Source: Paracoccaceae bacterium
GTDB lineage: Bacteria; Pseudomonadota; Alphaproteobacteria; Rhodobacterales; Rhodobacteraceae
NCBI GenBank assembly: GCA_028284705.1
Contig: JANQRE010000046.1
Location: forward strand, 1-64,000
Length of the DNA stretch: 64,000 nt
Direction: 5' to 3'
Under the pieces are notes generated by a model. It was not told the origin of the DNA. It did not search any database and worked only from the letters and a program-made list of their open reading frames with translations. Positions 1,577 through 22,966 of this stretch are shown in pieces. How positions within the stretch are numbered: the first letter of the stretch is position 1; each line of letters starts with the position of its first letter. The position numbers and the translations under genes were made by a program.

Positions 1577-1942
1577 GTGGACGAGCTGCTACGGGAATAT
1601 CTGCCCATCCTGATTTTTCTGGGGCTGGCCATTGCTCTTGGTCTGGTCCTGATCCTGGCGGCGGTTGTCGTCGCAGTCCGAAATCCCGACCCTGAGAAAG
1701 TGTCCGCCTATGAGTGCGGATTTAACGCCTTCGACGATGCGCGGATGAAGTTCGATGTGCGCTTCTATCTGGTCTCGATCCTGTTCATCATTTTCGACCT
1801 CGAAGTGGCGTTTCTGTTCCCCTGGGCCGTGGCCTTCCAAGACGTCGGTCTGCTCGGGTTCTGGTCGATGATGGTGTTCCTCGCGGTGCTGACCATCGGC
1901 TTTGCCTACGAATGGAAAAAGGGAGCGCTCGAATGGGAGTAG
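1577..1942 (+). CDS. nuoA: NADH-quinone oxidoreductase subunit A
   Basis: Membrane subunit of complex I, next to the quinone-site junction of the peripheral arm. I chose GTG at 1577 because AAGGAG at 1565-1570 has ideal spacing and the resulting 121 residues match NuoA length; an ATG at 1553 would add eight residues with no ribosome-binding site. Three hydrophobic segments are visible (about 10-33, 65-85 and 92-113). The conserved loop motif YECGF near residues 45-49 is followed by [18 protein letters not shown]. The stop overlaps the start of nuoB. First gene of the operon. Confidence 0.97.
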
Positions 1943-2478
1943 CGAGCGGCATTCAGACAGGCGCAAACACCGCCGATTGGGATAAGGAAGTCGCGACGCA
2001 GGCTCTGAACAAAGAGCTGCAGGACAAGGGTTTCCTGCTGACTTCGACTGAGGACATCATCAACTGGGCCCGCACAGGCTCGCTGCATTGGATGACCTTT
2101 GGTCTGGCCTGCTGCGCGGTGGAGATGATGCACACCGCCATGCCCCGGTACGATATGGAGCGGTTCGGCACGGCGCCGCGGGCCTCGCCGCGCCAGTCTG
2201 ACCTGATGATCGTGGCGGGCACGTTGACCAACAAGATGGCGCCTGCTCTGCGCAAGGTTTACGACCAGATGCCCGAGCCGCGTTATGTGCTGTCCATGGG
2301 TTCATGCGCCAATGGCGGTGGGTATTATCACTACAGCTATTCTGTGGTGCGCGGCTGTGACCGCATCGTGCCGGTGGACCTCTACGTGCCGGGCTGTCCG
2401 CCAACCGCCGAGGCGCTGCTCTACGGGCTTTTGCAATTACAACGCCGCATTCGCCGGACGGGGACCCTGGTCAGATGA
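1933..2478 (+). CDS. nuoB: NADH-quinone oxidoreductase subunit B
   Basis: Peripheral-arm subunit that carries the terminal 4Fe-4S cluster N2, which passes electrons to ubiquinone. With the ATG at 1933, overlapping the nuoA stop, the protein has 181 residues. The cluster ligands are visible: the tandem cysteines Cys60-Cys61 in [11 protein letters not shown], Cys125 in MGSCANGG and Cys155 in VPGCPPTAE. An in-frame ATG at 1912 would extend the N-terminus by seven residues deep into nuoA and has a poorer ribosome-binding site. The C-terminus overlaps nuoC by an ATGA. Confidence 0.97.
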
Positions 2479-3089
2479 GCGAACAACTCGAAGAACTCGC
2501 CGCGCATCTGGAGGCCAAACGCCCCGATTGTGTGCTGTCGACCGAGATCGCCCATGGCGAGTTGAACGTCTCCATCGCGCCATCCTCGCTGGTGGCCTTC
2601 ATGGAATTTCTGAAGACCGACCGGAACTGCAAGTTCTCGACCTTGGTGGACATCACGGCGGTGGATTATCCGACCCGGCCCGAGCGGTTCGATGTCGTCT
2701 ATCATCTGCTGTCGATGTATCAAAACCAGCGCATCCGCGTGAAAGTCGCGATCAGGGAAGAGGAGGTCGTGGCCTCGATCATCGATGTCTACCCGTCGGC
2801 CAACTGGTTCGAGCGCGAAGTGTTCGACATGTTCGGCATCCTGTTCTCGGGCCACCCCGATCTGCGCCGCATCCTCACCGATTACGGCTTCCGGGGCTAT
2901 CCGCTGCGCAAGGACTTCCCGACGACGGGCTATGTGGAAGTGCGCTATGACGAAGCGCAGAAACGCGTGGTCTATGAGCCAGTGAACCTGGTGCAGGAAT
3001 ATCGCCAGTTCGACTTCATGTCGCCTTGGGAAGGCGCTGAATACATCCTTCCGGGGGACGAGAAAACGGAAGAGGAGGCAAAAGGCTGA
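2475..3089 (+). CDS. nuoC: NADH-quinone oxidoreductase subunit C (30 kDa subunit)
   Basis: Peripheral-arm subunit without cofactors that packs against NuoD and NuoB. It is 204 residues long and separate from nuoD, not fused as in enterobacteria. The family signature [13 protein letters not shown] is followed by [20 protein letters not shown] and the RKDFP motif. The ATG sits in an ATGA overlap with the nuoB stop, suggesting coupled translation. Its own TGA overlaps the start of the small downstream membrane-protein ORF. Confidence 0.97.
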
Positions 3090-3271
3090 TGCCGACCTGG
3101 CTCTATCCGATCATGGCACTGCTCACGATCATCCCGTTCTGGATGTTCCTGCCGAAATTCAATCTGCCCTCGTGGTTTGCGATCTTCACGATCACGCCGT
3201 TCACGGTCATCCCGCTTCTATGGGTCATGGCCTTTCGCGACAAAATCACCATTCCGGGGATCGACAAATGA
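3089..3271 (+). CDS. Small two-helix membrane protein between nuoC and nuoD
   Basis: Sixty residues, strongly hydrophobic. Two likely transmembrane segments (about 5-20 and 27-48) are linked by a short loop with Pro and Lys, and the tail [12 protein letters not shown] is charged. The ATG overlaps the nuoC TGA (TGATG) and its own TGA overlaps the next ORF by ATGA, so it is almost certainly translated with its neighbours. I do not recognise a family. Its position suggests a complex I accessory or assembly protein, but that rests on location only. Confidence 0.75.
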   Translation: MPTWLYPIMALLTIIPFWMFLPKFNLPSWFAIFTITPFTVIPLLWVMAFRDKITIPGIDK

Positions 3272-3432
3272 CTGAGTTGTGGTTTGAGATTGCGAATACG
3301 TTCATCGCGGCAGCGGGCCTTTGTGTGGCGGCCGTACCCCTTTTAAAAACTTCTGAATTAGATACGAAGCGTTCCTTGGTCGTAACCTGTTCGAAAAAAG
3401 GAGAAAATTCTTTGGATCGAGGTTCAGTATGA
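3268..3432 (+). CDS. Small 54-residue protein of unknown function, AT-richer 3' half
   Basis: The ATG at 3268 overlaps the previous TGA and the TGA at 3430-3432 overlaps the nuoD ATG, so the ORF is locked into the translational chain. The first 25 residues ([20 protein letters not shown] and on) form one hydrophobic helix. The rest is polar, with a [10 protein letters not shown] segment and a CSKKGEN segment. Bases about 3340-3425 are clearly more AT-rich than the neighbouring nuo genes and include runs of A. No recognised family. It may be a single-pass membrane peptide, or mainly a spacer that keeps ribosomes moving into nuoD. Confidence 0.6.
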
Positions 3433-4673
3433 TGGACGGCGATATCCGCACGAACACCTATGATGACGGCTCGACGGATTTCGAGACCGGCGAACAGAAG
3501 ATCCGCAACTTCAACATCAACTTCGGACCTCAGCACCCCGCAGCCCACGGCGTGCTGCGTCTGGTGCTGGAGCTGGACGGTGAGATCGTCGAGCGCTGCG
3601 ACCCGCATATCGGGCTTCTCCATCGGGGAACCGAGAAACTGATGGAAAGCAGGACCTATCTGCAAAACCTGCCTTATTTTGATCGCCTCGATTACGTGGC
3701 GCCCATGAACCAGGAACATGCCTGGTGTCTGGCCATCGAGAAGCTGACCGGCACCGAAGTGCCGCGCCGTGCGTCGCTGATCCGGGTGCTTTACAGCGAG
3801 ATTGGCCGTGTTCTGAACCATCTGCTGAACGTGACCACGCAGGCCATGGATGTCGGCGCACTGACCCCGCCGCTCTGGGGCTTTGAAGAGCGAGAACACC
3901 TCATGGAGTTCTATGAGCGCGCCTGTGGGGCCAGGCTTCACGCGGCTTATTTCCGCCCCGGTGGTGTGCATCAGGACCTGCCGGATGGCCTCTTGGACGA
4001 CATCGAAGCCTGGTGCGATCCGTTCCTGAAGACACTGGATGACATCGACGGGCTTCTCACCGAAAACCGCATCTTCAAGCAGCGCAACGCCGATATCGGT
4101 GTGGTAAACGAGCAGGAAATCCTCGACTGGGGCTTTTCCGGCGTCATGGTGCGGGGCTCCGGCCTCGCCTGGGACTTGCGCCGCGCGCAGCCTTATGAAT
4201 GCTATGACGAGTTCGACTTCCAGATCCCCATCGGCAAGAACGGCGATTGCTACGACCGGTATCTCGTGCGGATGCAGGAGATGCGCGAGAGCGTGAAGAT
4301 CATGCGCCAAGCGGTCGAGAAACTCCGCGCGCCGGAGGGGCAGGGCGATGTGATGGCCCGCGGCAAGATGACCCCGCCGACCCGTGGCGAGATGAAGACC
4401 TCGATGGAGGCGCTGATCCACCACTTCAAGCTCTACACCGAAGGCTTCCACGTGCCGGAGGGCGAGGTTTACGCCGCTGTCGAGGCACCCAAAGGCGAGT
4501 TCGGCGTCTATCTTGTGGCCGACGGCACGAACAAACCCTACCGCGCCAAGATACGTGCGCCGGGATATCTGCACCTTCAAGCGATGGATTACGTGGCCAA
4601 AGGTCACCAACTCGCCGACGTTGCCGCGATCATCGGCACGATGGATGTCGTCTTTGGCGAGATCGACCGCTGA
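3429..4673 (+). CDS. nuoD: NADH-quinone oxidoreductase subunit D (49 kDa subunit)
   Basis: Large peripheral-arm subunit that forms the ubiquinone pocket with NuoB. At 414 residues it has the usual length. Visible signatures are [13 protein letters not shown] near the N-terminus, [16 protein letters not shown], the [12 protein letters not shown] segment, [10 protein letters not shown], and a C-terminal end FGEIDR. ATG-ATG at 3429/3432 gives two possible starts; the first overlaps the preceding TGA. It stands apart from nuoC, with two small ORFs inserted between them. Confidence 0.97.
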
Positions 4674-4705
4674 TGAATTTCGAGTTTTGATAGGGGGATA
4701 GAGAC

Positions 4706-4990
4706 ATGAAATTGAAAGCAACTGCCGCTGCCGCGTTTCTTGGCCTGAGCGCCTGCCTGCCGACACCGGAAGTCACTGCCGATAGCGGCGATCTGGCGAA
4801 ATATGCCGATGCCATGGCGCAGATCGGCTGCATCGACTTTGATGGCACCACCCGCGCCAAAATCCGCGACATCACCGGCTGGAAAGACAGCAAGCTCGAC
4901 AAGGTCGAGGAAGAAGCCAAGGCGCAATTCCAGGCCATCGACTCGCTGGGCGGTGGCACGCAATCCATCGTGGGCGCCTGCGCGACCTGA
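4706..4990 (+). CDS. Small putative lipoprotein between nuoD and nuoE
   Basis: 94 residues. A short positively charged start and an Ala-rich hydrophobic stretch end in LSAC with Cys17 as the lipidation site. The mature part has one more Cys in IGCIDFDG, a helical Lys/Glu-rich middle ([13 protein letters not shown]) and a terminal CAT. A GGGGGATAGAG stretch lies at a suitable distance before the ATG. I do not recognise the family. Three other small lipoproteins lie in the same operon, so a shared periplasmic role is possible but unproven. Confidence 0.65.
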
Positions 4991-5016
4991 TCTCTCAAGA
5001 AAGACCAAACCCACCC

Positions 5017-6150
5017 ATGCTCCGCAGACTACATCACGACCAGCCCGAGAGCTTCGCGTTCACGCCTGACAACCAGAAATGGGCCGAGGCGCAGATCACG
5101 AAATACCCTCCGGGCCGGCAGGCCTCAGCTATTATCCCGCTCCTGTGGCGGGCTCAGGAGCAGGAAGGCTGGTTGAGCCGTCCCGCGATCGAGGCAGTCG
5201 CGAGCATGCTGGATATGGCCTATATCCGGGCGCTGGAAGTGGCGACCTTCTACTTCATGTTCCAGTTGCAACCTGTTGGGTCCGTTGCGCATATTCAGAT
5301 TTGTGGCACCACGTCCTGCATGATCTGCGGGGCGGAAGACCTGGTGGCGGTTTGCAAGGACAAGATCGCGGCACGTCCGCACCAACTCTCCGCAGACGGC
5401 AAGTTTTCCTGGGAAGAGGTCGAGTGCTTGGGCGCCTGTGCCAACGCGCCGATGGCCCAGATCGGCAAGGATTATTATGAAGACCTGACCGCCGATAAAA
5501 TGGGTCAGATCATCGACATGCTTGCCAAAGGTGATGTGCCGACACCGGGGCCACAAAACGGGCGCTACGCGGCGGAGCCCAAGAAGGGACTGACCAGCCT
5601 CACTGAGTTCGATAGCGGGCATACCCAATACAATGCGTCCGTGCAGCTTGCTGCTGACCATGGCGATACCGTGAAGCGGATTGACGGGTCCGAAGCGCCG
5701 ATCCTGGCACCATGGGGCGCTGCCGCGCCGACCTTCACCGAAGCGCCGAAACGCGAAACATCTGCGGCGCAGAAGGCCGAAGCGGCGACTGAAAAGAAAC
5801 AGGCCAAACCAGCGACCAAGTCCGTCGACAAACCCAAAGCCAAGCCTGCCGCGGAGATCGCAGAAAGCGAACCGGCGCTTTTGAGTGAAGCGCGCGAGGG
5901 CGGGGCGGATGATCTGAAGCTGCTCAAGGGCGTGGGGCCGGGTCTGGAGAAGACGCTGAACGAGCTTGGGTTCTTCCATTTTGACCAGATTGCCGACTGG
6001 ACGCCGGAACAGGTCGCCTGGGTCGATGCACGGCTGAAATTCAAGGGCCGGATCGAACGCGATGACTGGATCGGTCAGGCGAAGATTCTCGCCAGCGGCG
6101 GCACAACGGAATTCGCGAACCGCAGCAAAAGCGGTAATAAGAAGACGTAG
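5017..6150 (+). CDS. nuoE: NADH-quinone oxidoreductase subunit E with C-terminal helix-hairpin-helix (H3TH-like) extension
   Basis: The first 160 or so residues are NuoE, the thioredoxin-fold subunit carrying the 2Fe-2S cluster N1a. Ligands are visible in [10 protein letters not shown] (two Cys four residues apart) and in [10 protein letters not shown]. The protein has 377 residues, about twice the classical length. After a Lys/Ala/Pro linker (about residues 230-290) comes a domain with [20 protein letters not shown] and [12 protein letters not shown], a helix-hairpin-helix pattern of the kind annotated as H3TH nuclease-like. The same domain recurs in the next gene with high identity. The extension is known in related alphaproteobacterial NuoE proteins; its role is unknown to me. 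Confidence 0.95.
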
Positions 6151-6168
6151 ACGGACAGGGAGTTCACC

Positions 6169-6981
6169 ATGAATCAGAACAGTACTGCGAAGCTGACATG
6201 TATGGCGACCTGCTGGATCGTTGCGCTGCTCCTTGGCGTGCTTGTTGCCGTGATCCTGACCTTGCTGGCCAATTTCGCCCTTGTGGCGGGCATCTTCCTT
6301 GGTCTCTTGGTGGCCGGGATTGCTGGTGCGATCCTGAGCTGGGCGTTTTGTCGTGATCTGCCGATGCCCATCGGTGGTGTGGGGCAAACCCAGCCCGGCA
6401 AGATGGTGTCCTCTCCAACCGGTGTCGGAACCGGCACACCGAAGGCCGCGAGTGCGGCGACGGCTGCCCCTGCCGCGGCGACAACGGCAACCGGCCTTAT
6501 GTCAGATCACGCGGCGGCTGAAGATCACAGCGCGCCTGCCGAGACTGCACCCGCAGAACCTGCGCCTGCAGCGAAGCCTGCACCCGCAGCCGCGGCGGCG
6601 CCGGCCAAGAAAGCGGCTCCAGCTGCCAAAAAGCCGGCTACAAAGCCGAAGGCGACCAAGGCAGCGGAGGCACCAGCCAGCGAAGGTGCGGCAGCAGGCG
6701 GGCAACCAGAGCTTTTAAATGAACCTCAAGGCGGTAAGGCGGATGATCTGAAGCAGATCAAAGGGGTTGGTCCGGGACTGGAGAAAACACTCAACGAGAT
6801 GGGTATCTGGCATTTCAGCCAGGTCGCCTCCTGGGGCGCTGCGGAAGTTGAATGGGTCGACAGCCGCCTGAAATTCAAAGGTCGCATCGAGCGGGACGAT
6901 TGGATTTCACAGGCCAAAACGCTGGCAGGCGGCGGAGCGACCGATTTCTCGAAACGCGTCGATAAAGGCGACGTGTACTGA
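6169..6981 (+). CDS. Membrane-anchored protein with H3TH-like C-terminal domain, paralogous to the NuoE extension
   Basis: 270 residues in three parts. Two transmembrane helices lie at about 13-35 and 38-60. A low-complexity Ala/Pro/Lys linker runs over about 75-180. The C-terminal domain contains [20 protein letters not shown] and [17 protein letters not shown], which matches the end of NuoE in roughly three of four positions. The tandem arrangement points to duplication of the domain within the operon. The hydrophobic N-terminus would hold the domain on the cytoplasmic membrane, possibly beside complex I. A nuclease role, as the H3TH name implies, has no support from visible catalytic residues. 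Confidence 0.8.
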   Translation: MNQNSTAKLTCMATCWIVALLLGVLVAVILTLLANFALVAGIFLGLLVAGIAGAILSWAFCRDLPMPIGGVGQTQPGKMVSSPTGVGTGTPKAASAATAAPAAATTATGLMSDHAAAEDHSAPAETAPAEPAPAAKPAPAAAAAPAKKAAPAAKKPATKPKATKAAEAPASEGAAAGGQPELLNEPQGGKADDLKQIKGVGPGLEKTLNEMGIWHFSQVASWGAAEVEWVDSRLKFKGRIERDDWISQAKTLAGGGATDFSKRVDKGDVY

Positions 6982-7031: not shown

Positions 7032-7259
7032 ATGGCTGCCGACAAGCAAGACTCCGGGCGACAGGGGCGCTTCATTGCCAAACTGATCGCCGGAACCGGG
7101 GTCCTCTACATTGTCCTGCAGCTGATCGCGGACCAGTATGGCTGGTCGCACCGGATAAGGGGGCTTTTCGATATCGCGGCGCTGGTCGCGTTCGGATACG
7201 CCCTGTGGATGACGATAAAGCTCTGGCGCGCAACGCGCGAGACGGATGGAGAAAGTTGA
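7032..7259 (+). CDS. DUF5337-like small membrane protein
   Basis: 75 residues from the ATG at 7032, which has AAAGG about ten bases upstream; an ATG at 7023 is too close to that site. Two transmembrane segments are visible (around 20-35 and 48-65), separated by a short loop with [11 protein letters not shown]. Length, topology and position before nuoF fit the DUF5337 family as I remember it from Rhodobacteraceae. Its end overlaps the region just before the nuoF start. Function unknown. Confidence 0.75.
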
Positions 7260-8561: not shown

Positions 8562-8906
8562 ATGAAGTATCTGGTATTGTCCTTGGCCGCGGTCACGCTG
8601 GTCGCGTGCGAACCCACAGGCACCGCGCCGTCGGAACCGAAAGGCCCGCCGATTGAGATCGTTGAAGCGGGCCGCAAGCTCGACACGGTGCGCGTGGCGA
8701 TGCGCTACAAGGATGGCTCGGCGATCCCCTCGGCAGATAGCAGCCGCGCAATGGCGCGCGCCATGGAGGTCGCCTGTCTCGAAGAGGAGACACCCATTGC
8801 CGACACGACGAACAGTGAGAATGGCATCCTGACGGCGAATGTCTTCTGCACACAGGTCCTGACAACAGATACGGTGGTCGATGGCTCGGCCTTCGTGCGG
8901 AGTTAA
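8562..8906 (+). CDS. Small putative lipoprotein after nuoF
   Basis: 114 residues starting two bases behind the nuoF stop. The signal peptide ends in the lipobox LVAC with Cys16. The mature protein begins with a Pro-rich spacer and continues with a domain holding two further Cys residues (VACLEEE and NVFCTQV). I cannot assign a family. The GAGGGG at 8530-8535 inside the nuoF end is a distant ribosome-binding candidate, so translation probably depends on nuoF. Confidence 0.7.
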   Translation: MKYLVLSLAAVTLVACEPTGTAPSEPKGPPIEIVEAGRKLDTVRVAMRYKDGSAIPSADSSRAMARAMEVACLEEETPIADTTNSENGILTANVFCTQVLTTDTVVDGSAFVRS

Positions 8907-8910
8907 GCCG

Positions 8911-9246
8911 ATGCTGCGGGTCGCCCTTCTCCTTCTGATTTCGATCAGTCTCGTGGCGGGCTGTAACCGCAAAGGTACGCGCAATGCCGATACCGAGCGG
9001 GAATTGCCGTTCAACGCGAAGTTCTCCAAGGGTGACGATCCCAGAGAAATCGAAGTGCGCGTCCAAAACAAAGGTGCGGGTGTTGAAGCGGTCCGCGAGA
9101 GTGTGCGCTTTGAAGCGACAAAATACTGCCTGATCAATTTCGGCGGCTCTGATGCGGACTGGCGTATCGATCCCGTCAGCAATGATTGGGCCTTCACGCA
9201 GGACGGCGACAGCCTGACCTTCTTTGCGAGGTGCACAGCCCGGTGA
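8911..9246 (+). CDS. Small putative lipoprotein, second of a pair
   Basis: 111 residues from the ATG at 8911, four bases after the previous stop. MLRVALLLLISISLVAGC gives a typical lipoprotein signal with Cys18. The mature part contains EATKYCLINFGG and ends FFARCTAR, so it has two Cys that could form a disulphide. The layout (signal, spacer, about 80-residue domain with two Cys) is shared with the lipoproteins at 8562 and 12271, although sequence identity is low by eye. No known function. The stop overlaps the next start. Confidence 0.7.
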   Translation: MLRVALLLLISISLVAGCNRKGTRNADTERELPFNAKFSKGDDPREIEVRVQNKGAGVEAVRESVRFEATKYCLINFGGSDADWRIDPVSNDWAFTQDGDSLTFFARCTAR

Positions 9247-9743
9247 TGCAGCCAGAGGGACATAACCTGGCAGAGCTGAATGTCGGCAGGCTCGTGGCGC
9301 CCTTGCACGATCCGCGTGTGCGGGAGTTCATGGAAGCTCTCGACTTCGTGAATGGTCTGGGAAAGCGGATGCCGGGATTTGTCTGGATGATGGAGGGCTC
9401 CGGTCGGCCCGGAACAGGCAATACTGAGACAAATATCGGTGGCGATCCGCAGTTCATTCCCAATCTGACCGTCTGGGAAGACGTTGAAAGCCTTGAGAAA
9501 TTCGTCTGGGGCACCGTGCATAAGCAGTTCTATGAGCGCCGTGCGGAATGGTTTGAAATTCTCGGGCAGCAGCACTTCGTGATGTGGTGGGTGCCAAAAG
9601 GTCATGTGCCGACGCTGGAAGAGGCCTTGCAACGTCTCGAAATGAGACGTGAGCGCGGCGATAGTGAAGATGCGTTCGGGTGGGATTATCTTGAGCAGGC
9701 AAAACTGCACAAGACCCATGGATGTCGCGAGGACGCCGCATGA
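9246..9743 (+). CDS. DUF3291 domain protein
   Basis: 165 residues. The sequence HNLAELNVGRLVAPLHDPRV, a central NLTVWEDVESLEKFVWGTVH and the late HFVMWWVPKGHVPTLEEAL are characteristic of the DUF3291 family, a dimeric alpha-beta barrel fold like antibiotic-biosynthesis monooxygenases. Whether this family is enzymatic is unclear. It carries no signal peptide and is probably cytoplasmic, in contrast to the lipoproteins on its left. The ATG at 9246 shares its A with the preceding TGA, and its own TGA overlaps the next ATG. Confidence 0.85.
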   Translation: MQPEGHNLAELNVGRLVAPLHDPRVREFMEALDFVNGLGKRMPGFVWMMEGSGRPGTGNTETNIGGDPQFIPNLTVWEDVESLEKFVWGTVHKQFYERRAEWFEILGQQHFVMWWVPKGHVPTLEEALQRLEMRRERGDSEDAFGWDYLEQAKLHKTHGCREDAA

Positions 9744-10147
9744 CCCGAACTGTACTGATGATCACTGCCTTCCTGTTGGTTGCTCCCGTCGGAGCAGACG
9801 CCAAGGTGGCCTTGAAAGATGACCCGACGATTGAGAACGGCCTGACCTTGTTCGCCGTTGGAGATCGGCTTGACGAAACCTGCCCGGAAATCAAAGTCCG
9901 AGAGCTGAAGACGAAAGCCTACGCGTTGAGCCTCTTCAACCATGCGAGGGGCCTCGGCTACTCGACTGCTGAAATCGACGCCTATCTCGACAGCGAGCCG
10001 GACAAGACCCGCATCAAAGCGCACGCGGCGAATTATCTGAAATCCAAAGGCGCAAATTTGAACAATACGGCTTCGATCTGCGAAGTCGGACGAAAGGAAG
10101 TGGCAGACCAGACCTCGGTCGGCCGGTACCTGAGAGTGAGCAACTAA
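9740..10147 (+). CDS. DUF5333 family secreted protein
   Basis: 135 residues from the ATG at 9740, in an ATGA overlap with the DUF3291 gene. A signal peptide ends near VGADA. The mature protein has the pattern I associate with DUF5333: ENGLTLFAVGDRLDETCPEIKV at the start (split here as ENGL, then DETCPEI), LGYSTAEIDAYLDS in the middle and ASICEVGRKEV near the end. Its two Cys may form a disulphide. Rhodobacteraceae nuo operons commonly carry such a gene; the function is unknown. Confidence 0.8.
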   Translation: MTRTVLMITAFLLVAPVGADAKVALKDDPTIENGLTLFAVGDRLDETCPEIKVRELKTKAYALSLFNHARGLGYSTAEIDAYLDSEPDKTRIKAHAANYLKSKGANLNNTASICEVGRKEVADQTSVGRYLRVSN

Positions 10148-12270: not shown

Positions 12271-12672
12271 GTGGCCGGGACACCACATATCGCAGTGGCG
12301 GGCGTCGCGCTGGCGGGTCTTGTTGCCTGCACGACAGAGGTCGACCCGACACGGGATTATTTCCAGCCGGAATATCTTGGTGTGGAGACGCGCAAGCTCG
12401 ACAGCGATCTGGTGTCTTTCCTCGTCCGCATGCGGGGCGCGCGCACCAATGCAGACGTGGCCGATTATGGTAAATGCGCTGCGGCGCAATACGCGCTGAT
12501 CCGGGGCTTCGGGTTCGCGCGACATGTCCGCACAAGCGTGCAGGAAGAGGCTGGTATATGGGCGGCGGATGCGGTTTACACCGTCTCGGCGGCTCTACCG
12601 CAAGGGTTACAAACGATAGATGCCGAGGTGGTCGTGGCGGACTGCCAGGAAAATGGAATACCAACCGTCTGA
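12271..12672 (+). CDS. Small putative lipoprotein between nuoG and nuoH
   Basis: 133 residues beginning with GTG at 12271, eleven bases after nuoG. The signal peptide ends in LVAC with Cys20. The mature domain contains YGKCAAAQYALIRGFGFARH and a final VVVADCQENG. The two Cys and the mixed helical/beta appearance recall the lipoprotein at 8911. No stronger start codon is present in frame, and GACTGCGAGA is a poor ribosome-binding site. Function unknown. Confidence 0.65.
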   Translation: MAGTPHIAVAGVALAGLVACTTEVDPTRDYFQPEYLGVETRKLDSDLVSFLVRMRGARTNADVADYGKCAAAQYALIRGFGFARHVRTSVQEEAGIWAADAVYTVSAALPQGLQTIDAEVVVADCQENGIPTV

Positions 12673-13748: not shown

Positions 13749-14477
13749 TTGGGCGTCGACTGCACCCTTTTCACACAGCTCGCAGAGCTCAGGACCCGGT
13801 GGAGGCCGGAGGGGCGCAGTCTGATGCTCGGGCGTCAGACCCTCAAGATCGAACCCCGTTTTGCGAAACGCTACGAGGCTGCATTGAAACGTGGCGGTCT
13901 GGAGGGGCGCAGGTTTGATTACCTGCAAGACGACGGCTATTCCGAAAACATGTTCGAGAAATTCGGCTTCGGCCAGATCGAGACCATGGATTACGCGTCC
14001 TATGAAGGCCCGTCGATTGAGCAGGATCTGAATAAGCCGGTGCCGACGAAACTGCACAAGAAGTTCGGCTTCATCTTCGATGGCGGCACCATCGAGCATG
14101 TCTTCAACGTGCCGCAAGCGCTTGAAAACGTGTTTAATATGCTGAAACCCGGCGGACGGTTTGTCTCCGCCAATGGGATGAATGGCTGGGTCGGGCACGG
14201 GATGTATCAGTTCAACCCAGAATTGGTTTGGACCTTCTGGAAACGCAAATGCCAGTGCATCGTGCATCGCTGCCTGGGCATCCATAAAATCCCGGGCCAT
14301 GCAAAAATCCTGTCCTTCCCCGATGCGGCCAAAACCGGTCAGCGTCTGCGGCTGAAAGGCAAAATCCCAGAAGGCCGTGTGTATCTGTATTATGAAGTTG
14401 AGAGAACCGCTGCGCCGATGCTTGAGACCTCGGCGCTGCAAAGTGACTACCAAACCCGTTGGGCCGCAAGCGCCTGA
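13749..14477 (+). CDS. Methyltransferase-like protein inserted between nuoH and nuoI
   Basis: 242 residues, starting with TTG two bases after the nuoH stop. The central stretch FIFDGGTIEHVFN, NVFNMLKPGGRFV and NGWVGHGMYQFNPELVW resembles the C-terminal half of class I SAM-dependent methyltransferases (post-motif and motif VI region). The usual glycine-rich motif I (E/DxGxGxG) is not obvious: the N-terminal third is RRFDYLQDDGYSENMFEKFG. It may be a divergent or non-catalytic member. A Cys-rich patch KRKCQCIVHRCLG follows. The target is unknown; complex I methylation is speculation. Confidence 0.65.
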   Translation: MGVDCTLFTQLAELRTRWRPEGRSLMLGRQTLKIEPRFAKRYEAALKRGGLEGRRFDYLQDDGYSENMFEKFGFGQIETMDYASYEGPSIEQDLNKPVPTKLHKKFGFIFDGGTIEHVFNVPQALENVFNMLKPGGRFVSANGMNGWVGHGMYQFNPELVWTFWKRKCQCIVHRCLGIHKIPGHAKILSFPDAAKTGQRLRLKGKIPEGRVYLYYEVERTAAPMLETSALQSDYQTRWAASA

Positions 14478-14498: not shown

Positions 14499-14990
14499 AT
14501 GAGCTTTGATATCGCACGTGCCACCAAGTATTTCCTGCTGGTGGATTTCCTCAAAGGTTTTGGTCTGGGCATGAAGTATTTCTTCGCCCCCAAGGCCACC
14601 GTGAACTATCCGCATGAGAAAGGGCCGCTGAGCCCGCGCTTCCGTGGCGAACACGCCCTGCGTCGCTATCCCAATGGCGAGGAGCGCTGCATTGCCTGCA
14701 AGCTGTGTGAGGCCATCTGCCCCGCCCAGGCCATCACCATCGATGCCGAACCGCGCGAGGACGGCTCCCGCCGCACCACGCGCTATGACATCGACATGAC
14801 GAAATGCATCTATTGCGGCTTCTGTCAGGAGGCCTGCCCGGTGGATGCCATCGTCGAGGGCCCGAATTTCGAATTCGCGACCGAGACCCGTGAAGAGCTT
14901 TACTACGACAAGGCCAAGCTTCTGGAAAACGGCGAACGCTGGGAAGCCGAGATCGCCCGCAACCTTGAAATGGACGCGCCTTACAGATGA
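14499..14990 (+). CDS. nuoI: NADH-quinone oxidoreductase subunit I (8Fe ferredoxin-like)
   Basis: Carries the two 4Fe-4S clusters N6a and N6b that link NuoG to NuoB. 163 residues. The two ligand motifs are plain: [12 protein letters not shown] and [12 protein letters not shown]. The amphipathic N-terminus ([19 protein letters not shown]) attaches it to the membrane arm. AGGAGAG upstream is a good ribosome-binding site. The TGA overlaps the next ATG. Confidence 0.97.
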
Positions 14991-15391
14991 CCGACGCCAA
15001 AAACCCTTTCGAGCAGATGATGGAAATGGGCCAGGCCTGGGCGAAAGCCGTGTCGCCGGGGCTCGAAAACTTCACGCCCAAAGGGTTCGAGAAAATGTTC
15101 CCCACCATGCCGGCCGAGATGATGGAGCAGTTCATGGGCAAGACGTTCAATCCGGGCGGATTGGACGCCAAGACACGTCTGTTGTTGACGCTGACGGGCC
15201 TCACGATACAAGGCGCGCAGGCCGAGGCGCAAATCCGGTTGACCGTCCGCCATCTGGTGGAAGCAGGCGCCACACAACAAGAAATTGCCGAAACCATCGC
15301 GCAAGCCGCGATTTTCGGTGGGGTTCCGGCGATGACGAAAGCCATGGAACTTGCGACGTCCGTTTTGGACGAAGAGGAAGGGGACAGCTGA
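14987..15391 (+). CDS. Carboxymuconolactone decarboxylase (CMD)-like protein without cysteines
   Basis: 134 residues in an ATGA overlap with nuoI and a TGATG overlap with nuoJ. The helical core [24 protein letters not shown]-like [18 protein letters not shown] and [10 protein letters not shown] follow the CMD fold as seen in AhpD-like and gamma-CMD proteins. There is no Cys anywhere, so the CxxC peroxidase centre of AhpD is absent and a thiol reductase role is excluded. An N-terminal acidic/Met-rich segment of about 50 residues precedes the core. Role within the nuo operon unknown. Confidence 0.8.
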
Positions 15392-16009: not shown

Positions 16010-16456
16010 GTGAAAGCGACGACGGCATATTTGGCCAGTCTGATGGCAGCAACATCCGCCTCGCAAGCGGAGGAGTTCGTGCCTCCCTGCGGCAACGGGT
16101 TTGTTGATGAGCGTTTCATTTATTTCATCGAAAAGCTGCCAAACGGGTTCGTTTCGGAGCACAGCACGGATGATATTCCCGTCTGGAACAGGATCGACCT
16201 TGTGCACTGCGAAAGCGGAAAGACCATGCGCGCGGATTTCCGTGCCGTCGGCGAGCATGATCCAAGACCGGTCGATGATCACTTCGAAAGCCGCATGAAG
16301 AGTCCGGTGGGAATTACCCAAGAGCGCCTGGCACGGGAGCTGAAAGAAAAAGGTGCAAGAACGCAAATTTTCGTAAACCGTGCCGAGAGCTGTGCCTGTC
16401 GGTTGCACTATCCCCAATCCCGCGGCGCCAAGTCTGCGTTCGAGGCCGAATTCTGA
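16010..16456 (+). CDS. Secreted Cys-x-Cys protein, first of three tandem paralogues
   Basis: 148 residues from a GTG at 16010, five bases behind nuoJ. A signal peptide ends around SASQA. The mature part opens with VPPCGNG, has a central HCESGKTM, and ends with the family signature AESCACRLHYPQSRGAKSAF. The signature recurs in the next two genes, and PPC recurs in the second. Four Cys, two of them in CAC, suggest disulphides or metal binding in the periplasm. No known family comes to mind. Cotranscribed between nuoJ and nuoK. Confidence 0.7.
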   Translation: MKATTAYLASLMAATSASQAEEFVPPCGNGFVDERFIYFIEKLPNGFVSEHSTDDIPVWNRIDLVHCESGKTMRADFRAVGEHDPRPVDDHFESRMKSPVGITQERLARELKEKGARTQIFVNRAESCACRLHYPQSRGAKSAFEAEF

Positions 16457-16920
16457 TGATGCAGGTCCGTCATATCGCATTGGGGATCGCTCTGGCGGGT
16501 CCGGCGAGCGCGCTGACCCCGCTGCCACCGCCCTGCGCCTACGGCGAAGACCAGGTGGACGGGCGGCAGATCACCTATACCACCCGCGAAGCCAATCAAT
16601 TCGTGACTTACGAGGCCTATACAAAGCGCCAACAGGTGCTGCTCTATCTTGAACATTGTCCCTCGGGCAAAATCCTGCGCAGCAAATCGGCCCCCGATAG
16701 CGTTCAGCCCGACAGCCCGCGCAGCCCAAGTTCCGTGCTCGACACCGTCGAGGCGGTTTTGACTTCGGACCAACCCTACACAATGGGCGATATTCAGCGC
16801 GTTTTGAAAGAGCAGGGCGTGGCCACGCGCCGCTTCACCTCGAAGGCCGAAAGCTGCGCCTGCCAGCACTACTTCCCCGATGCGCGGGGCAGCAAAGCCC
16901 CTTACGAGATGGGCCAATGA
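16456..16920 (+). CDS. Secreted Cys-x-Cys protein, second of three tandem paralogues
   Basis: 154 residues. The ATG at 16456 shares its A with the previous TGA (TGATG); a second ATG follows at once. The signal peptide ends near PASA. The mature protein has LPPPCAYG, EHCPSGKIL, and the C-terminal KAESCACQHYFPDARGSKAP, all matching the first paralogue. A helical VLKEQG segment precedes the Cys motif in the same place as LKEKG there. Function unknown; export and disulphide or metal binding are inferred. Confidence 0.72.
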   Translation: MMQVRHIALGIALAGPASALTPLPPPCAYGEDQVDGRQITYTTREANQFVTYEAYTKRQQVLLYLEHCPSGKILRSKSAPDSVQPDSPRSPSSVLDTVEAVLTSDQPYTMGDIQRVLKEQGVATRRFTSKAESCACQHYFPDARGSKAPYEMGQ

Positions 16921-17390
16921 TGCGTTTGCCTCATATCGCATTAGGGCTTGTGGGCATCTGCGCAGCCAGTATGGCGACAGGCCATACCCTCGCCGAATGC
17001 GAGCGCATCACGCATATCTCGCATGGCGGGGTGATGGGGCACCGCGATCTGGGCGAGAACAAAGTCGGGTGGCTGGAATGGTGGAGCCAGGAGGGGGTCT
17101 ACAAAACTCTCTGGATCGCGGAATGCGATACCGGTCGGACGCTCTCGATCCGCACGCATGAGGAGCGGATCAAGGATCGCCACATCCACGACCGGACTGA
17201 GAAAGCGGTTGGGATTGTCGAGCGCCAGGCCGCCTCTGGCCCGTTCTTCACGCTGGAGCGCACCGCCGAGGCCTTGAAGAAAGCGGGCCGTGACATCGAG
17301 ATTGCCGCGAGCGGTGCCGAATTCTGCGCCTGCCACGCCGTCTATCCGGACCTGCGCGGCGACAAGACCCAATATGGAGGCCAGTCATGA
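16917..17390 (+). CDS. Secreted Cys-x-Cys protein, third of three tandem paralogues
   Basis: 157 residues, ATG overlapping the preceding TGA. The N-terminus [10 protein letters not shown] is nearly the same as MMQVRHIALG of the second paralogue, which supports a recent duplication. Mature features are an early Cys in [17 protein letters not shown], and the signature [19 protein letters not shown]. It diverges most in the middle, where it is His- and Arg-rich (KDRHIHDR). Its TGA overlaps the ATG of a 57-residue ORF. Function unknown. Confidence 0.72.
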
Positions 17391-17560
17391 CCTCCACACG
17401 CACCAAACGCATCGTCATCGCCACCATGCTCGCCTGTCTGATCCTGCCGGTGATCATCTTCGGCACCTCCCCGGTGGACGCGGTGCATGGGCTAAGCGGG
17501 CCGCTGAACTATTCGCCGAACGGCGCAATTACAAAACCGAACGAGGGCATTTTCCAATGA
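17387..17560 (+). CDS. 57-residue membrane or secreted peptide just before nuoK
   Basis: ATG at 17387 overlaps the third Cys-x-Cys gene, and the TGA at 17558-17560 overlaps the nuoK ATG, so both ends are tied into the operon. A basic N-terminus (MTSTRTKR) is followed by one hydrophobic segment (about 9-25) and a polar, Pro/Gly/Asn-rich tail. It could be a signal-anchored peptide facing the periplasm. AATATGGAGG upstream gives a good ribosome-binding site. No family recognised. Confidence 0.6.
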
Positions 17561-17862
17561 TCGGTCTGGAACACTATCTCACTGTCGCGGCGGCCTTGTT
17601 CGTCATTGGCATCTTCGGCATCTTCGTGAACCGGAAGAATGTCATCATCATCCTGATGTCGATCGAACTGATGCTGCTGGCTGTGAATATCAACCTGGTG
17701 GCCTTCTCCTCCTTCCTCGGCGATCTCGTGGGCCAGGTGTTCACGCTGTTCGTTCTGACCGTCGCCGCCGCCGAGGCCGCCATCGGGCTGGCCATCCTCG
17801 TCTGTTTCTTCCGCAACCGCGGCACCATCGCCGTGGAAGACGTCAATGTCATGAAGGGCTAA
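17557..17862 (+). CDS. nuoK: NADH-quinone oxidoreductase subunit K
   Basis: Small membrane-arm subunit of 101 residues, exactly the common length, with three transmembrane helices. The conserved Glu of helix 2 is in [17 protein letters not shown]. Another conserved acidic residue lies in helix 3 ([13 protein letters not shown]). Both belong to the proton-transfer path between NuoH and NuoN. ATG at 17557 overlaps the preceding TGA. The frame is open upstream but unrelated in sequence. Confidence 0.96.
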
Positions 17863-17869
17863 GAATTTC

Positions 17870-19966
17870 ATGGAAACACTACTCCTCTTTGCCCCTCTGA
17901 TCGGTGCGCTGATCTGCGGATTTGGCTGGCGGTTGATCGGCGAACAAGCGGCCTGCGTGGTCGCGACCGGGCTTTTGTTCCTCTCAGCCATCCTCAGCTG
18001 GATCGTCTTCCTTGGTCATGATGGCACGAAAGAGCAGATCGAAATCCTGCGCTGGATTTCCTCCGGCACGCTCGACACAAGCTGGGCGATCCGCCTCGAC
18101 CGGTTGACGGCGACGATGCTGATCGTGATCACCACAGTATCTTCCCTCGTACACCTCTATTCCTTCGGCTACATGGCCCATGACGAGAATTTCGAGGAAG
18201 GTCACGTCTACAAGCCGCGCTTCTTTGCCTATCTGAGTTTCTTCACCTTCGCGATGCTGATGCTGGTGACCGCCGACAACCTCGTGCAGATGTTCTTCGG
18301 CTGGGAGGGTGTAGGTGTCGCCTCCTACCTCTTGATCGGGTTTTACTACAAGAAGCCCTCGGCCAATGCCGCCGCGATCAAGGCGTTTGTGGTCAACCGG
18401 GTTGGCGATTTCGGCTTCGCGCTTGGCATCTTCGCGCTGTTTTTCCTGGTCGACAGCATCGACATGGATGTGATCTTCGCCGCCGCGCCGGAGCTGGCGG
18501 AGACAAATCTCACCTTCCTCTGGGCCGAATGGAACGCCGCCAACCTGGTGATGGTTCTGCTCTTCATCGGCGCCATGGGTAAATCGGCACAGTTGATCCT
18601 GCACACCTGGCTGCCGGACGCGATGGAAGGCCCGACACCGGTCTCCGCGCTGATCCACGCGGCGACCATGGTGACGGCGGGTGTGTTCCTCGTCTGCCGC
18701 ATGTCGCCGCTGCTGGAATTTGCACCGGATGCGAAGAACCTGGTCGTGATCATCGGTTCGCTGACCGCTTTCTTCGCCGCCACGGTGGGCCTGGTGCAGA
18801 ATGACATCAAACGAGTGATCGCCTATTCGACCTGCTCGCAGCTGGGTTACATGTTCGTGGCCGCGGGCGTCGGCGTCTATTCCGTCGCCATGTTCCACCT
18901 GCTGACCCACGCCTTCTTCAAGGCAATGCTTTTCCTCGGCGCAGGTTCGGTGATCCACGCGATGCATCACGAGCAGGACATGCGCAATTATGGCGGCTTG
19001 AGGGACAAGATCCCGATGACATTCTGGGCGATGATGATCGGCACTTTGGCGATCACCGGCGTCGGCATTCCACTGCTTTATATCGGTTTCCCGGTGGGTT
19101 TCGCGGGCTTTGTGTCGAAAGACGCGATCATCGAGAGCGCCTATGCGGCGGCTCCGATGGGCGGCGCGTTCTGGCTTCTGGTCATCGCCGCGCTCTTCAC
19201 CAGCTTCTATTCCTGGCGACTGATGTTCATGACCTTCTACGGCAAACCGCGCGGCGACAAACACGCCCATGAGCACGCCCATGAAAGCCCGAACACGATG
19301 CTCGTGCCGCTTGGCGTTCTGGCAATCGGCGCGGTCTTCTCCGGCATGGTCTTCTACAAGCCTTATTTCGGCTCGGACGAAAGTGTCGAGAAGTTCTTCG
19401 GCATCTCCGGTGAGAAACACGCCATCGTGCAGCCTCTCGGCGCGGCCTATGCGGCGGGCGAAAGCGATGCAAAAGAGGGTGACGAGCACCACGGGCGCCA
19501 TGTCGGCGAGCCGGGTGAGGGCGCGATCTTCATGGCGGCCGAAAACACCGTGCTGCATGATGCGCATTACGTACCGAAATGGGTGAAAGTCTCGCCCTTC
19601 ATTGCGATGCTGCTTGGCCTCTTCACGGCCTGGATGTTCTACATACGCGACACGTCCTTGCCGGGGCGGCTCGCGCGCAGCCAGCCGATCCTCTACCAGT
19701 TCCTGCTGAACAAATGGTATTTCGACGAGGTCTATGACCTGATCTTCACAGAGCCCGCGAAACGGGTCGGATCGTTCTTCTGGAAACGCGGCGATGGCAA
19801 TGTCATCGACGGCACGATCAACGGGGTCGCCATGGGGATCGTGCCCTTCTTCACGCGGCTGGCCGGTCGGGTTCAGTCGGGCTTCATGTTCCACTACGCG
19901 TTCGCCATGGTGATCGGGATTGTGATCCTGATCACCTGGTTCGCCATTGGCGGGAGTGCAAACTGA
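17870..19966 (+). CDS. nuoL: NADH-quinone oxidoreductase subunit L
   Basis: Distal antiporter-like proton-pumping subunit, with the long lateral helix at its C-terminus. 698 residues and about 16 transmembrane segments. The conserved proton-channel and family motifs include [37 protein letters not shown] and the following MVTAGVF. A His-rich loop ([11 protein letters not shown]) lies near residue 465 and an acidic, His-containing loop near 540 ([11 protein letters not shown]). TGATG overlap with nuoM. Confidence 0.97.
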
Positions 19967-21510
19967 TGCTAGATTCCCTGCTCACGCTGATCACCTTTAC
20001 GCCGCTCATCGCTGCGCTGATCCTGGCGCTGTTCCTGCGCGGCGAGGATGAGGCTGCGCAGCGTAGTGCCAAATGGGTGGCGCTCGGCGCGACGACGCTG
20101 ACCTTCGTGCTGTCGATCTTCCTCTATACCGGCTTCGATCCGGCCAATACCGGCTTCCAGTTCGTGGAAGAGCGCGAATGGCTGCTTGGATTGCAATACA
20201 AGATGGGTGTCGACGGGATTTCGGTTCTGTTTGTCCTGCTTACGACATTCCTAATGCCGCTGACCATCGCGGCCTGTTGGGACGTCACGCACCGGGTGAA
20301 GGATTACATGATCGCGTTCCTCGTGCTGGAAACGCTGATGATCGGGGTGTTCTGCGCGCTCGATCTGATCCTTTTCTACCTGTTCTTCGAGGCCGGTCTG
20401 ATCCCGATGTTCCTCATCATCGGCATCTGGGGCGGCAAGGAGCGCATCTACGCCTCCTTCAAGTTCTTCCTCTACACGCTTCTGGGCTCGGTCCTGATGC
20501 TGGTCGCCATGATCGCGATGTATCTCGATGCGGGCACCACGGACATCCCGACCCTGCTGACCCATCAGTTCGGGTCGGAGAGCTTCTCAGTTCTCGGCAT
20601 CCAGATCCTCGGCGGCGCGCAGACGCTGATGTTCCTGGCCTTCTTTGCCTCGTTTGCGGTGAAGATGCCGATGTGGCCGGTGCATACCTGGTTGCCGGAT
20701 GCGCACGTGCAAGCGCCAACTGCAGGCTCCGTCGTTCTGGCCGCGATCCTTCTAAAGATGGGCGGCTACGGCTTCCTGCGCTTCTCCCTGCCGATGTTCC
20801 CGGTGGGATCGGAAGTCATGGGGCCGCTGGTGCTCTGGCTTTCGGTCATCGCGATTGTCTACACCTCGCTGGTGGCGCTCGCGCAGGAGGATATGAAGAA
20901 GCTGATCGCCTATTCCTCGGTCGCGCATATGGGGTACGTGACCATGGGCATCTTCGCGGTGAACCAACAGGGCATCGACGGGGCGATTTTCCAGATGCTC
21001 AGCCACGGCTTCATCTCTGGCGCGCTCTTCCTCTGCGTCGGCGTGATTTATGACCGGATGCATACCCGCGAGATCGACGCCTATGGGGGTCTGGTGAACC
21101 GCATGCCGGCCTACGCACTGATCTTCATGCTGTTCACCATGGCCAATGTCGGCCTGCCGGGCACCTCCGGCTTCATCGGCGAATTCCTGACACTGATGGG
21201 CATCTTCCAGAAAAACACCTGGATCGCGATGTTTGCCACCACCGGCGTCATCCTGTCGGCGGCCTATGCGCTTTGGCTCTACCGCCGTGTCGTCATGGGT
21301 GACCTGATCAAGGAGAGCCTGAAATCGATCACCGATATGACGCCACGGGAGCGTGCAGTCTTCGCGCCGCTCGTCTTCATGACGATCTTCCTCGGCGTCT
21401 ATCCCGCGCCGGTGCTCGACATGATCGGGCCGAGCGTCGCGGCCCTCGTTGACAATTACTCAACCGCGCTGCTCGACAGCGGCTTTGCCACTCAAGTGGC
21501 CGGAAATTAA
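19966..21510 (+). CDS. nuoM: NADH-quinone oxidoreductase subunit M
   Basis: Second antiporter-like subunit of the membrane arm. 514 residues, about 14 transmembrane helices. Signature segments are LLFVLLTTF-like helices, [37 protein letters not shown] and [11 protein letters not shown]. Starts with an ATG that overlaps the nuoL TGA, and is followed 16 bases later by nuoN. Confidence 0.97.
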
Positions 21511-21526
21511 GGGCGGGAACTAAGCC

Positions 21527-22966
21527 ATGATCCAAGCTGACCTCAACGTTGTCCTGCCCGAGATCGTTCTCGCCGTCTTCGCCATGGCGGCGCTGATGGG
21601 CGCGGTCTATACCGGCAAGGACCGAACCGCGCCGATGGTCCTCTGGGCGACCTCCGCCGTTTTCGTCGTGCTGGCCGCCTGGATCGGATTTGGCGGCGGT
21701 GGCACGCAGACTGCGTTCGGCGGCGCCTTCATCGATGACGCCTTCTCGCGCTTTGCCAAGGTGACGATCCTGCTTTCCGCCGCGGCGATCCTGCTTTTGA
21801 GCCAGGATTACATGACCCGCCACGGGCTCTTCCGCTTCGAATATCCGATCCTTGTTGCCTTAGCGGTCGTCGGCATGATGATGATGGTTTCGGCTGGAGA
21901 CCTCATGGCGCTCTATATGGGGCTCGAGCTGCAATCCCTCTCGCTCTATGTGGTCGCCGCACTGCGCCGCGACTCTGTGCGTTCCACCGAAGCCGGGCTG
22001 AAATACTTCGTGCTCGGCGCTTTGTCCTCGGGCATGCTGCTCTACGGCGCCTCGTTGGTCTATGGCCACGCCGGCACGACGCTCTTCTCCGGCATCGTGA
22101 CCACCGCGACCGAAGGCCCGATCTCGCTCGGCCTTCTTTTCGGCCTCGTCTTCGTCTTCGCAGGGCTTGCCTTCAAGGTCTCCGCCGCGCCGTTCCACAT
22201 GTGGACACCGGACGTCTATGAGGGTTCACCGACACCGATCACCGCCTTCTTCGCGACCGCGCCCAAGGTCGCCGCCATGGCGCTTTTCGCCCGCGTCGCC
22301 CATGACGCTTTCGGCGGTGCGGTGGCCGACTGGTCGCAGATCGTTGCCTTCCTCTCGGTCGCGTCCATGTTCCTCGGTGCCATCGCGGCCATCGGCCAAC
22401 GCGATATCAAACGCCTGATGGCCTATTCCTCCATCGCTCATATGGGCTTTGCGTTGATGGGCCTGGCCGCGGGAACCGAGGCTGGGGTGCAGGCCATGCT
22501 CGTCTATATGGCGATCTACGTGACGATGAATATCGGTACCTTTGCCTTCATCCTGTCGATGAACAAGGACGGCCAGCCGGTCACCGATATCGACAGTCTG
22601 CAGATGTATTCCAAGGTGCAGCCGGGCCGGGCGCTGGCCATGCTGGTGCTGCTCTTCTCGCTGGCCGGCATTCCGCCGCTGGTGGGCTTTTTCGGCAAAT
22701 TCTATGTGCTGAAAGCCGCGGTGGACGCGGATATGGTCTGGCTTGCGGTCGCCGGCGTCATCGCCTCAGTCATTGGTGCCTTCTATTATCTGCGCATCAT
22801 CTATTTCATGTATTTCGGCGAGGAGCGCGACGCGCTCGACAACACTATCACGCCCGTCGCCTGGGTGATGCTGATGGGCTCGGCCGCGATCATGCTGGTG
22901 GGTGTGATCAACCTCTTCGGCATCGAGGGGCTGGCGCTCGCTGCGGCAGGATCGCTTGTCAATTGA
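21527..22966 (+). CDS. nuoN: NADH-quinone oxidoreductase subunit N
   Basis: Third antiporter-like subunit, next to NuoK. 479 residues with about 14 transmembrane helices. Motifs: [20 protein letters not shown] with the functional Glu, [20 protein letters not shown] and [15 protein letters not shown]. Last nuo gene; the 3' end overlaps birA by 11 bases, so the transcript probably continues. Confidence 0.97.

Follow-up and report, generated by a model that had tools for sequence, protein, structure and literature searches.

Two tiers of additional genes in the nuo operon of Rhodobacteraceae, among them a probable orthologue of the RC-LH1 subunit protein-O

Unidentified reading frames (URFs) between the nuo genes are a feature of the nqo/nuo clusters of Paracoccus denitrificans and Rhodobacter capsulatus. 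Here we report frames of the same kind in the complex I (nuo) operon of a Paracoccaceae bacterium, to which the present analysis adds their number, a slot map and their variability across 80 loci. The operon lies in a window of 64,000 nucleotides (GenBank assembly GCA_028284705.1, contig JANQRE010000046.1, positions 1 to 64,000), in which the 14 core genes nuoA to nuoN stand in order with sixteen additional same-strand open reading frames (ORFs) interspersed (Table 1); we name each ORF by its first position and each slot by the core genes on either side, so that E/F lies between nuoE and nuoF. The main new points are a two-tier slot map of the additional genes and the finding that a subunit of the photosynthetic reaction centre-light-harvesting 1 (RC-LH1) complex, to which ORF 6169 appears orthologous, is a widespread nuo-operon protein that is kept in many genomes without pufM.

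The closest described counterpart of 6169 is protein-O of the RC-LH1 complex of Dinoroseobacter shibae (ABV93056.1; PDB 8yy9, 8yz2, 9jpb and 9km0; PMC12079452). It was identified by mass spectrometry and density between RC-L, the reaction centre L subunit, and LH1 alpha 11/12, with residues 8-59 traced, a disulfide between Cys10 and Cys59 and the remainder invisible in the density; its gene was placed between nuoE and nuoF, and the available part of the paper leaves its function and its origin (original, acquired or recruited) as open questions. No other paper treating protein-O was found in the literature searched, which excluded subscription papers and preprints; the string 'protein-o' occurs once each in two more papers there. 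Six PDB codes sought in the same literature were named only in PMC12079452. Against solved structures, 6169 matched chain O of the D. shibae complex at 1.4e-36 as a single sequence and at 8.5e-69 by profile, in an alignment that spans both a membrane hairpin and a C-terminal H3TH tail. Both proteins have the cysteine pair and an intervening linker, both genes stand between nuoE and nuoF, and the two C-termini are near-identical (TDFSKRVDKGDVY versus TEFSKRVDGGDVY); the D. shibae hairpin has Gln38, which is absent from that of the window. Further matches of 6169 were to 9wqv_a, labelled '41 kd complex I subunit' (2e-29), and to 9lts_A, 'protein LRC' (6e-4), whose aligned hairpin is identical in reading to that of protein-O. 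Protein-U (PufY) of the Rhodobacter sphaeroides RC-LH1 resembles the protein-O hairpin in fold and position, whereas the sequences of the two are distinct according to the available part of PMC12079452.

Given homology over hairpin and tail, a pair equivalent to Cys10-Cys59, the nuoE-nuoF position and a genome of the PufC type, 6169 is, as judged from its sequence, the protein-O orthologue. The presence of protein-O in RC-LH1 has been demonstrated in D. shibae; by analogy, the RC-LH1 of the window organism would contain 6169. The genome of this organism (4.04 Mb, 98.7% complete, with a single strong NuoD match) has pufM and pufC above cut-off in an order that reads pufL-pufM-pufC-dxs, where the labels pufL and dxs, like sdhC, sdhD and the atp gene order elsewhere in this work, are taken from sequence and position rather than from family searches. 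With pufM and pufC present, the gene content marks the organism as an anoxygenic phototroph.

A search for NuoD succeeded in every genome of the order (149 of 149, from 72 genera). Of the other 148 loci we sampled 80, comprising one for each other genus, two of the window's genus and seven more; the 5 kb locus L019 was excluded, while L031 (14 kb) and other incomplete loci were retained, so that all counts below are of 80 Rhodobacteraceae nuo loci in 71 genera, the window included. Each of the 30 genes of the operon was searched for with an iterated profile model, and antisense ORFs, which served as a control, gave 0 matches with every one of these models. The longest possible ORF was always assumed, so that gaps are underestimated; this choice also produced an artefactual J/K call for the CMD gene in the window's own row, where that gene and 17387 were each called one slot late (the true order is I-14987-J and 17387-K), and the nuoL, nuoM and nuoN models cross-match one another. 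Five families proved near-fixed: 6169 (E/F in 56/56 loci), DUF5337 (E/F in 76/77), DUF5333 (F/G in 70/71, the other scored F/cut-off), 12271 (G/H in 69/69) and CMD (I/J in 69/71). The last four were scored together in 78 loci, with all four present in 57, three in 16, two in 3 and none in 2. The remaining eleven ORFs belong to families found in fewer than half of the 80 loci, and a locus holds a median of nine accessory ORFs (range 2-20, 16 in the window), a count in which not all small ORFs are proven genes. The accessory set has two tiers, few near-fixed and most variable, and the slot map separates the five near-fixed genes from apparent local cargo.

Gaps of more than 150 bp between adjacent core genes number 437/960 in Rhodobacteraceae against 12/242 in other alphaproteobacterial families, which, with the absence of antisense matches, shows that the filled gaps are not due to chance. 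The outgroup comprised 20 loci of 20 families, chosen among the 49 genomes of other families in which NuoD was matched; most were the closest by NuoD and did not lie at a contig end, and one is truncated. All 20 were compact, and of 13 accessory models only DUF3291 matched, in the F/G slot of L087. Seven loci of Roseibium, Labrenzia, Stappia and Bosea, found among the best 80 tail matches and hence from a tail-biased set, run from A to M without these families. Across 190 genomes of the class, DUF5337 and DUF5333 were each above cut-off in three, all of the window's family, with two further weak DUF5337 matches under the cut-off. Within this one bacterial family, an operon that is otherwise compact has been opened at particular joints; the nuo A/B, B/C, K/L, L/M and M/N gaps are mostly closed (6/327 above 150 bp). 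The sdhA-sdhB gap of the sdh operon exceeds 150 bp in all but one of the 19 genomes in which it was measured (20 were tried and one distant sdhB hit omitted); the two gaps preceding sdhA do so in 0/20 each, and across 20 genomes the four atpHAGDC gaps in 1/80. The family thus habitually takes up genes at particular joints of particular operons, and part of the pattern is not special to complex I because the sdhA-sdhB gap is filled likewise.

These observations bear on a landing-pad explanation, in which certain operons accumulate small genes that benefit from being steadily expressed and most inserts have no functional connection with complex I; we would give it an even chance. Cargo of this sort is suggested by the sdhA-sdhB inserts of L111 and L116, which are lipoprotein-like ORFs (L116:8783-10364) joined in L111 by an FkbM methyltransferase above cut-off. 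The sdh inserts inspected, those of L111, L114 and L116, also include one 276-residue ORF without a Pfam match. In the nuo operon the C/D slot holds a cluster of ~300-residue ORFs in 21 loci (for example L024:1555-2454), the one representative scanned being a sulfotransferase above the Pfam cut-off. Many unassigned ORFs are singletons or pairs, F/G holding the largest number (50), and single representatives match MAPEG, GFA, lumazine-binding-like and methyltransferase families. Kinship between the sdh-slot and nuo-slot inserts was considered and dropped, with no match at 1e-3. What tells against indiscriminate cargo is that the backbone families almost never leave their slots, that five nuo joints stay mostly closed, and that the atpHAGDC gaps almost never exceed 150 bp, so that being a major energy operon is not sufficient for filling.

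Protein-O itself was compared with the photosynthesis genes. pufM occurs in 34 of the 80 genomes, 17 with PufX and 17 with PufC above cut-off and never both (the PufC genome G057 also has a single PufX match, under the cut-off). Protein-O stands in E/F in 17/17 PufC genomes, 13/17 PufX genomes and 26/46 pufM-less genomes (PufC versus the rest, p 0.0019, not tree-corrected); as it is so widespread (56/80), and present in so many pufM-less genomes, a function beyond photosynthesis is to be expected of it. L023, which is among the 26, has a hairpin but no tail, and hairpin-like, tail-less proteins in the slot of two other pufM-less loci, L058 (a weak model match) and L070 (by eye), were left uncounted. 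We consider it slightly likelier than its contrary that 6169 was at root a membrane anchor of the nuo operon that was recruited into RC-LH1. In the family ancestor the nuo operon would have gained genes at fixed places, five of which became near-permanent, with slots C/D, D/E, F/G, H/I and J/K exchanging small lipoproteins, membrane peptides and enzymes. The 6169 protein would originally have been a membrane anchor of the respiratory operon, presumably with a respiratory role, and PufC-type phototrophs may then have taken up its hairpin as an RC-LH1 subunit wedged between the reaction centre and the LH1 ring. With protein-O expressed from the complex I operon, the amount of it available for photosynthesis would be coupled to the expression of respiratory genes.

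A contrary descent, in which protein-O began as a photosynthesis gene, later came to lie in nuo and persists in pufM-less carriers that are recent losers, seems to us very improbable. In its favour, protein-O is commoner in genomes with pufM (30/34 versus 26/46, p 0.0028, not tree-corrected); a puf-linked copy in G134 and weak constraint in one pufM-less genus, g7, both described below, would also fit. On a core-gene tree with 11 supported puf contrasts, however, protein-O differed in the same way as puf in 2.4, in the opposite way in 1.0 and not at all in 7.6, so it is mostly unaffected by gain or loss of puf. The cysteine pair is likewise no mark of phototrophy, since it is retained in 21/26 pufM-less proteins as well as in 14/17 PufC and 6/13 PufX proteins. 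Ratios of nonsynonymous to synonymous substitution (dN/dS, by NG86, for pairs with estimable dS, some alignments including false N-terminal extensions) are below 1 for protein-O in five pufM-less pairs, at 0.15 (g3), 0.26 (two genera) and 0.47-0.65 (three pairs of g7); in phototroph pairs they are 0.11-0.24, with nuoF at 0.02-0.15 over the same pairs.

The tail of 6169 is shared with the neighbouring gene product. The NuoE tail is found in 72/80 loci and in 1/20 outgroup NuoE proteins, and the C-terminal domain that NuoE and 6169 have in common is matched by the NCBIfam models PRK12278, PRK12311 and PhaH with scores under their cut-offs, as a shared domain would lead one to expect. This domain is common to H3TH-tailed L21, S2 and the phasin PhaH, in which the host protein differs; in the window's genome the same tail is found on ribosomal protein L21 (L225:61-813, - strand). 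Across 46 genomes with both tails usable, tail identity between NuoE and protein-O (0.646) is about that within protein-O (0.648) and within NuoE (0.668). A test for concerted evolution of the two tails gave an identity of 0.671 within the same genome, a value reached in 0/2000 permutations, which ignore the tree, and a genome's own NuoE tail is the best match of its protein-O tail in just 5/46 cases. The likeness may reflect one shared constraint, perhaps one shared partner. Protein-O could then be a physical part common to two complexes, with its tail on complex I (or on the partner of the NuoE tail) and its hairpin on RC-LH1, which we hold to be unlikely; if so, it would in phototrophs tether or co-assemble the photosynthetic and respiratory entries to the quinone pool, with stoichiometry set from one operon. 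A further family, with a hydrophobic N-terminus and the same H3TH tail, lies away from nuo (L227:1989-2654, - strand; L228; L189).

G134, of PufX type, is one of 24 genomes that lack protein-O at nuo and has a counterpart beside its photosynthesis genes (Table 1). The hairpin of this protein matches the protein-O hairpin model at 1.4e-5, the next best of 285 ORFs reaching 0.16, and as a single-sequence query the protein retrieves chain O of D. shibae (5.7e-22) and 9wqv_a (2.7e-24). The gene may have moved there or have arisen by a second fusion. In either case, a gene of such make-up beside photosynthesis genes speaks for photosynthetic use, in this one genome; the other three PufX genomes lacking protein-O at nuo showed no such gene, and a search for plasmid relatives gave seven records, none covering 80% of the query and the best placing the tail only.

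Several results weigh against recruitment from the nuo operon into RC-LH1. After tree correction protein-O does not track puf (median p 1 over the 11 contrasts). Hairpin residues enriched in the PufC lineage over pufM-less proteins (D. shibae numbering) include Leu62 (13/17 versus 1/26), Ser55 (11/17 versus 1/26) and Gln38 (9/17 versus 0/26, and 2/13 in PufX proteins), from 303 tests with a best p of 8e-7, not tree-corrected; the D. shibae protein, however, has only Gln38 and neither Leu62 nor Ser55, while the window protein has Leu62 and Ser55 without Gln38. The PufX phototrophs G046, G062 and G094 gave no match joining hairpin and tail. In g7, protein-O dN/dS of 0.47-0.65 (dS 0.88-1.52, not saturated) compares with 0.09-0.15 for nuoF, so that constraint on it there is weak; DUF5333 (0.33-0.77) and 12271 (0.37-0.68) are about as loose in this genus, and the g7 values are weak evidence for function there. 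The tail tree places the G134 tail nearest the NuoE tails, without support, and because it cannot separate NuoE from protein-O tails, the G134 gene may be a fusion that arose independently and not one that moved. Recruitment could have run the other way if phototrophy is ancestral in the family. Finally, the available text on the 2.3 Å structure of P. denitrificans complex I names none of the operon extras (PMC11522691). Two variable families also showed uncorrected associations with puf, DUF3291 (17/34 versus 8/46, p 0.003) and 4706 (14/34 versus 9/46, p 0.047), neither of which held in the tree-corrected pairs among those listed.

That structure text bears equally on a dedicated complex I module, close to what the initial annotation had proposed: the five backbone proteins, perhaps with others, would assemble, protect or regulate complex I, for example with DUF5333 and 12271 on the periplasmic side and DUF5337 and protein-O in the membrane. 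We regard such a module as doubtful. DUF5333, 12271, CMD and DUF5337 are slot-bound in 69-77 of the 80 loci, and the strictness with which they keep their places argues for some tie with complex I or with the expression of the operon; the near-restriction of DUF5337 and DUF5333 to the window's family, the tight overlaps between genes and the tail common to NuoE and 6169 point the same way. The extra subunits named for P. denitrificans complex I are, like the sixteen, non-core proteins beside an alphaproteobacterial complex I, but they are NDUFS4, NDUFS6, NDUFA12 and CI-PIMT, the PIMT being judged inactive, and differ from the sixteen ORF families as far as names rather than sequences can tell (available part of PMC11522691). 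Earlier mass spectrometry of Paracoccus complex I found unassigned extra proteins, and the available part of that report names no operon ORFs (PMC8115037). Two Paracoccus genomes, L207 and L218, nevertheless carry all five near-fixed families; proteins loosely bound to complex I, or present at an assembly stage, are possible. What survives of the proposed set is a coupled group with five families near-fixed in position in a sample of 71 genera. Its extension to all sixteen is not supported for the eleven ORFs of the less frequent families, to which the lack of conservation between genera that the initial annotation had named as refuting applies wholly or in part. ORF 6169 is homologous to an RC-LH1 subunit (in D. 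shibae a demonstrated one) and to no known complex I factor, the Paracoccus structure text is silent on the set, and specificity for complex I is weakened by the filled sdhA-sdhB gap.

Table 1. Features of the nuo operon in the window, with one related gene from another genome (last row); loci are out of 80
Feature	Position	Strand	Slot	Loci	Remarks
nuoA-N operon with sixteen additional ORFs	1577..22966	+			
Small hydrophobic protein 3089	3089..3271	+	C/D (20), D/E (3)	23	two transmembrane helices by eye
54-residue ORF 3268, doubtful	3268..3432	+		1	negative codon score; no sequence relative; L068 counterpart by position
Lipoprotein-like 4706	4706..4990	+	D/E	23	invariant C42 and C92
H3TH tail of NuoE	5881..6135	+			homologous to 6169 tail, 66% identical
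Putative protein-O orthologue 6169	6169..6981	+	E/F	56	two-helix membrane hairpin, Ala/Pro/Lys linker, H3TH tail
Hairpin domain of 6169	6190..6354	+			two Cys equivalent to the D. shibae protein-O disulfide pair
H3TH tail of 6169	6715..6978	+			
DUF5337	7032..7259	+	E/F	77	PF17272, 80.1 bits (cut-off 27)
Lipoprotein-like 8562	8562..8906	+		1	relatives not found in other loci
Lipoprotein-like family 8911	8911..9246	+	F/G	38	invariant C18, C73 and C108
DUF3291	9246..9743	+	F/G	25	PF11695, 157.8 (cut-off 23.5); also outgroup L087
DUF5333	9740..10147	+	F/G	71	helical, signal-like N-terminus by eye; PF17267, 105.1 (cut-off 27)
Lipoprotein-like 12271	12271..12672	+	G/H	69	invariant C69 and C125; confident model
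Methyltransferase-like 13749	13749..14477	+	H/I	7	below cut-offs
CMD-family protein	14987..15391	+	I/J	71	PF02627, 63.2 (cut-off 23)
C-x-C protein 1	16010..16456	+	J/K	12 (family)	signal-like N-terminus by eye
C-x-C protein 2	16456..16920	+			tandem paralogue, 33% identical to protein 1
C-x-C protein 3	16917..17390	+			tandem paralogue, 28% identical to protein 2
57-residue peptide 17387	17387..17560	+		1	relatives not found in other loci
G134 protein-O-like gene	L226:3065-3682	-			205 residues, hairpin-linker-H3TH, behind pufL-pufM-pufX-dxs on the same strand

All sixteen ORFs of the initial annotation were recovered in place on the + strand, and fifteen look like coding sequence. In-frame codon scores are 0.15 to 0.62 for the core genes and 0.05 to 0.50 for these fifteen, the lowest being those of 16010 and 12271. 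ORF 3268 scores -0.23, with a third-position G+C fraction (GC3) of 0.44, although its own frame is still higher than its two alternative frames; no sequence relative was found in the 80 other loci at E 1e-5, and its positional counterpart is a 36-residue ORF in L068. Stop-start coupling, to which attention had been drawn, is present, with overlaps of between 1 and 31 bases at 15 of the 29 junctions, yet it is core-gene style too and not particular to the extras, because core-core junctions overlap in 3/5 cases (accessory-accessory 6/8, accessory-core 4/8, core-accessory 2/8). An Rfam scan of positions 1-24500 gave no match, and over 1-20000 promoter-like sites (2 versus 5.4 expected) and terminator-like sites (22 versus 17.4) offered nothing usable. 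A lytic transglycosylase with a peptidoglycan-binding domain lies upstream of nuoA (286-1410), and the ORF at 22956-23708, which overlaps the end of nuoN, is presumably a biotin ligase-like protein.

Lipoprotein, signal and transmembrane labels were judged by eye, apart from one hydropathy count. The DUF5337, DUF3291, DUF5333 and CMD labels were all borne out by matches above Pfam cut-offs, and the C-x-C motif of the three Cys-x-Cys proteins is invariant in 14 aligned sequences of their family (C134 and C136 in 16456). The methyltransferase label of 13749 was not upheld: it fell below cut-off with each of four Pfam methyltransferase models, the best by E-value scoring 22.1 against 27, and a role as an NDUFAF5/NDUFAF7-like complex I factor was set aside with this result and its occurrence in only seven loci. 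Assignment of 14987 as the 4-carboxymuconolactone decarboxylase PcaC was likewise rejected (TIGR02425, 48.9 against a cut-off of 155.7). Predicted models of DUF5333 (mean pLDDT 92.9) and 12271 (89.5) are helical and alpha-beta, respectively, with two invariant cysteines in each family (25 sequences), and the signal-like N-termini would place both proteins outside the cytoplasm. With a limit of E 0.001, Foldseek found no PDB match for either model, and the top hits of 12271 include ACT-like domains at 0.02-0.04; profile searches of the PDB gave none for DUF5337 at E 1 and, for 12271, only CTCF zinc-finger matches at 0.018 or worse. A resemblance of DUF5333 to BURRH repeats (2e-7 over ~50 residues) was discarded as a helical-repeat coincidence, no stretch passing alone, as was a single superfamily of 12271, 8911 and 8562 based on cysteine spacing (profile comparison probabilities of 15% and 1%). 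DUF5333 and DUF5337 are not named in the literature searched, with the same exclusions as above. The window's genome encodes a second, distant DUF5333-like protein (L232:1144-1566, - strand, profile E 1.1e-9), for which there was no NCBIfam match. In another locus, two neighbouring F/G inserts (L049:11656-13176) both end in a sorting-signal-like C-terminus, VPLPAAGWML...RRR.

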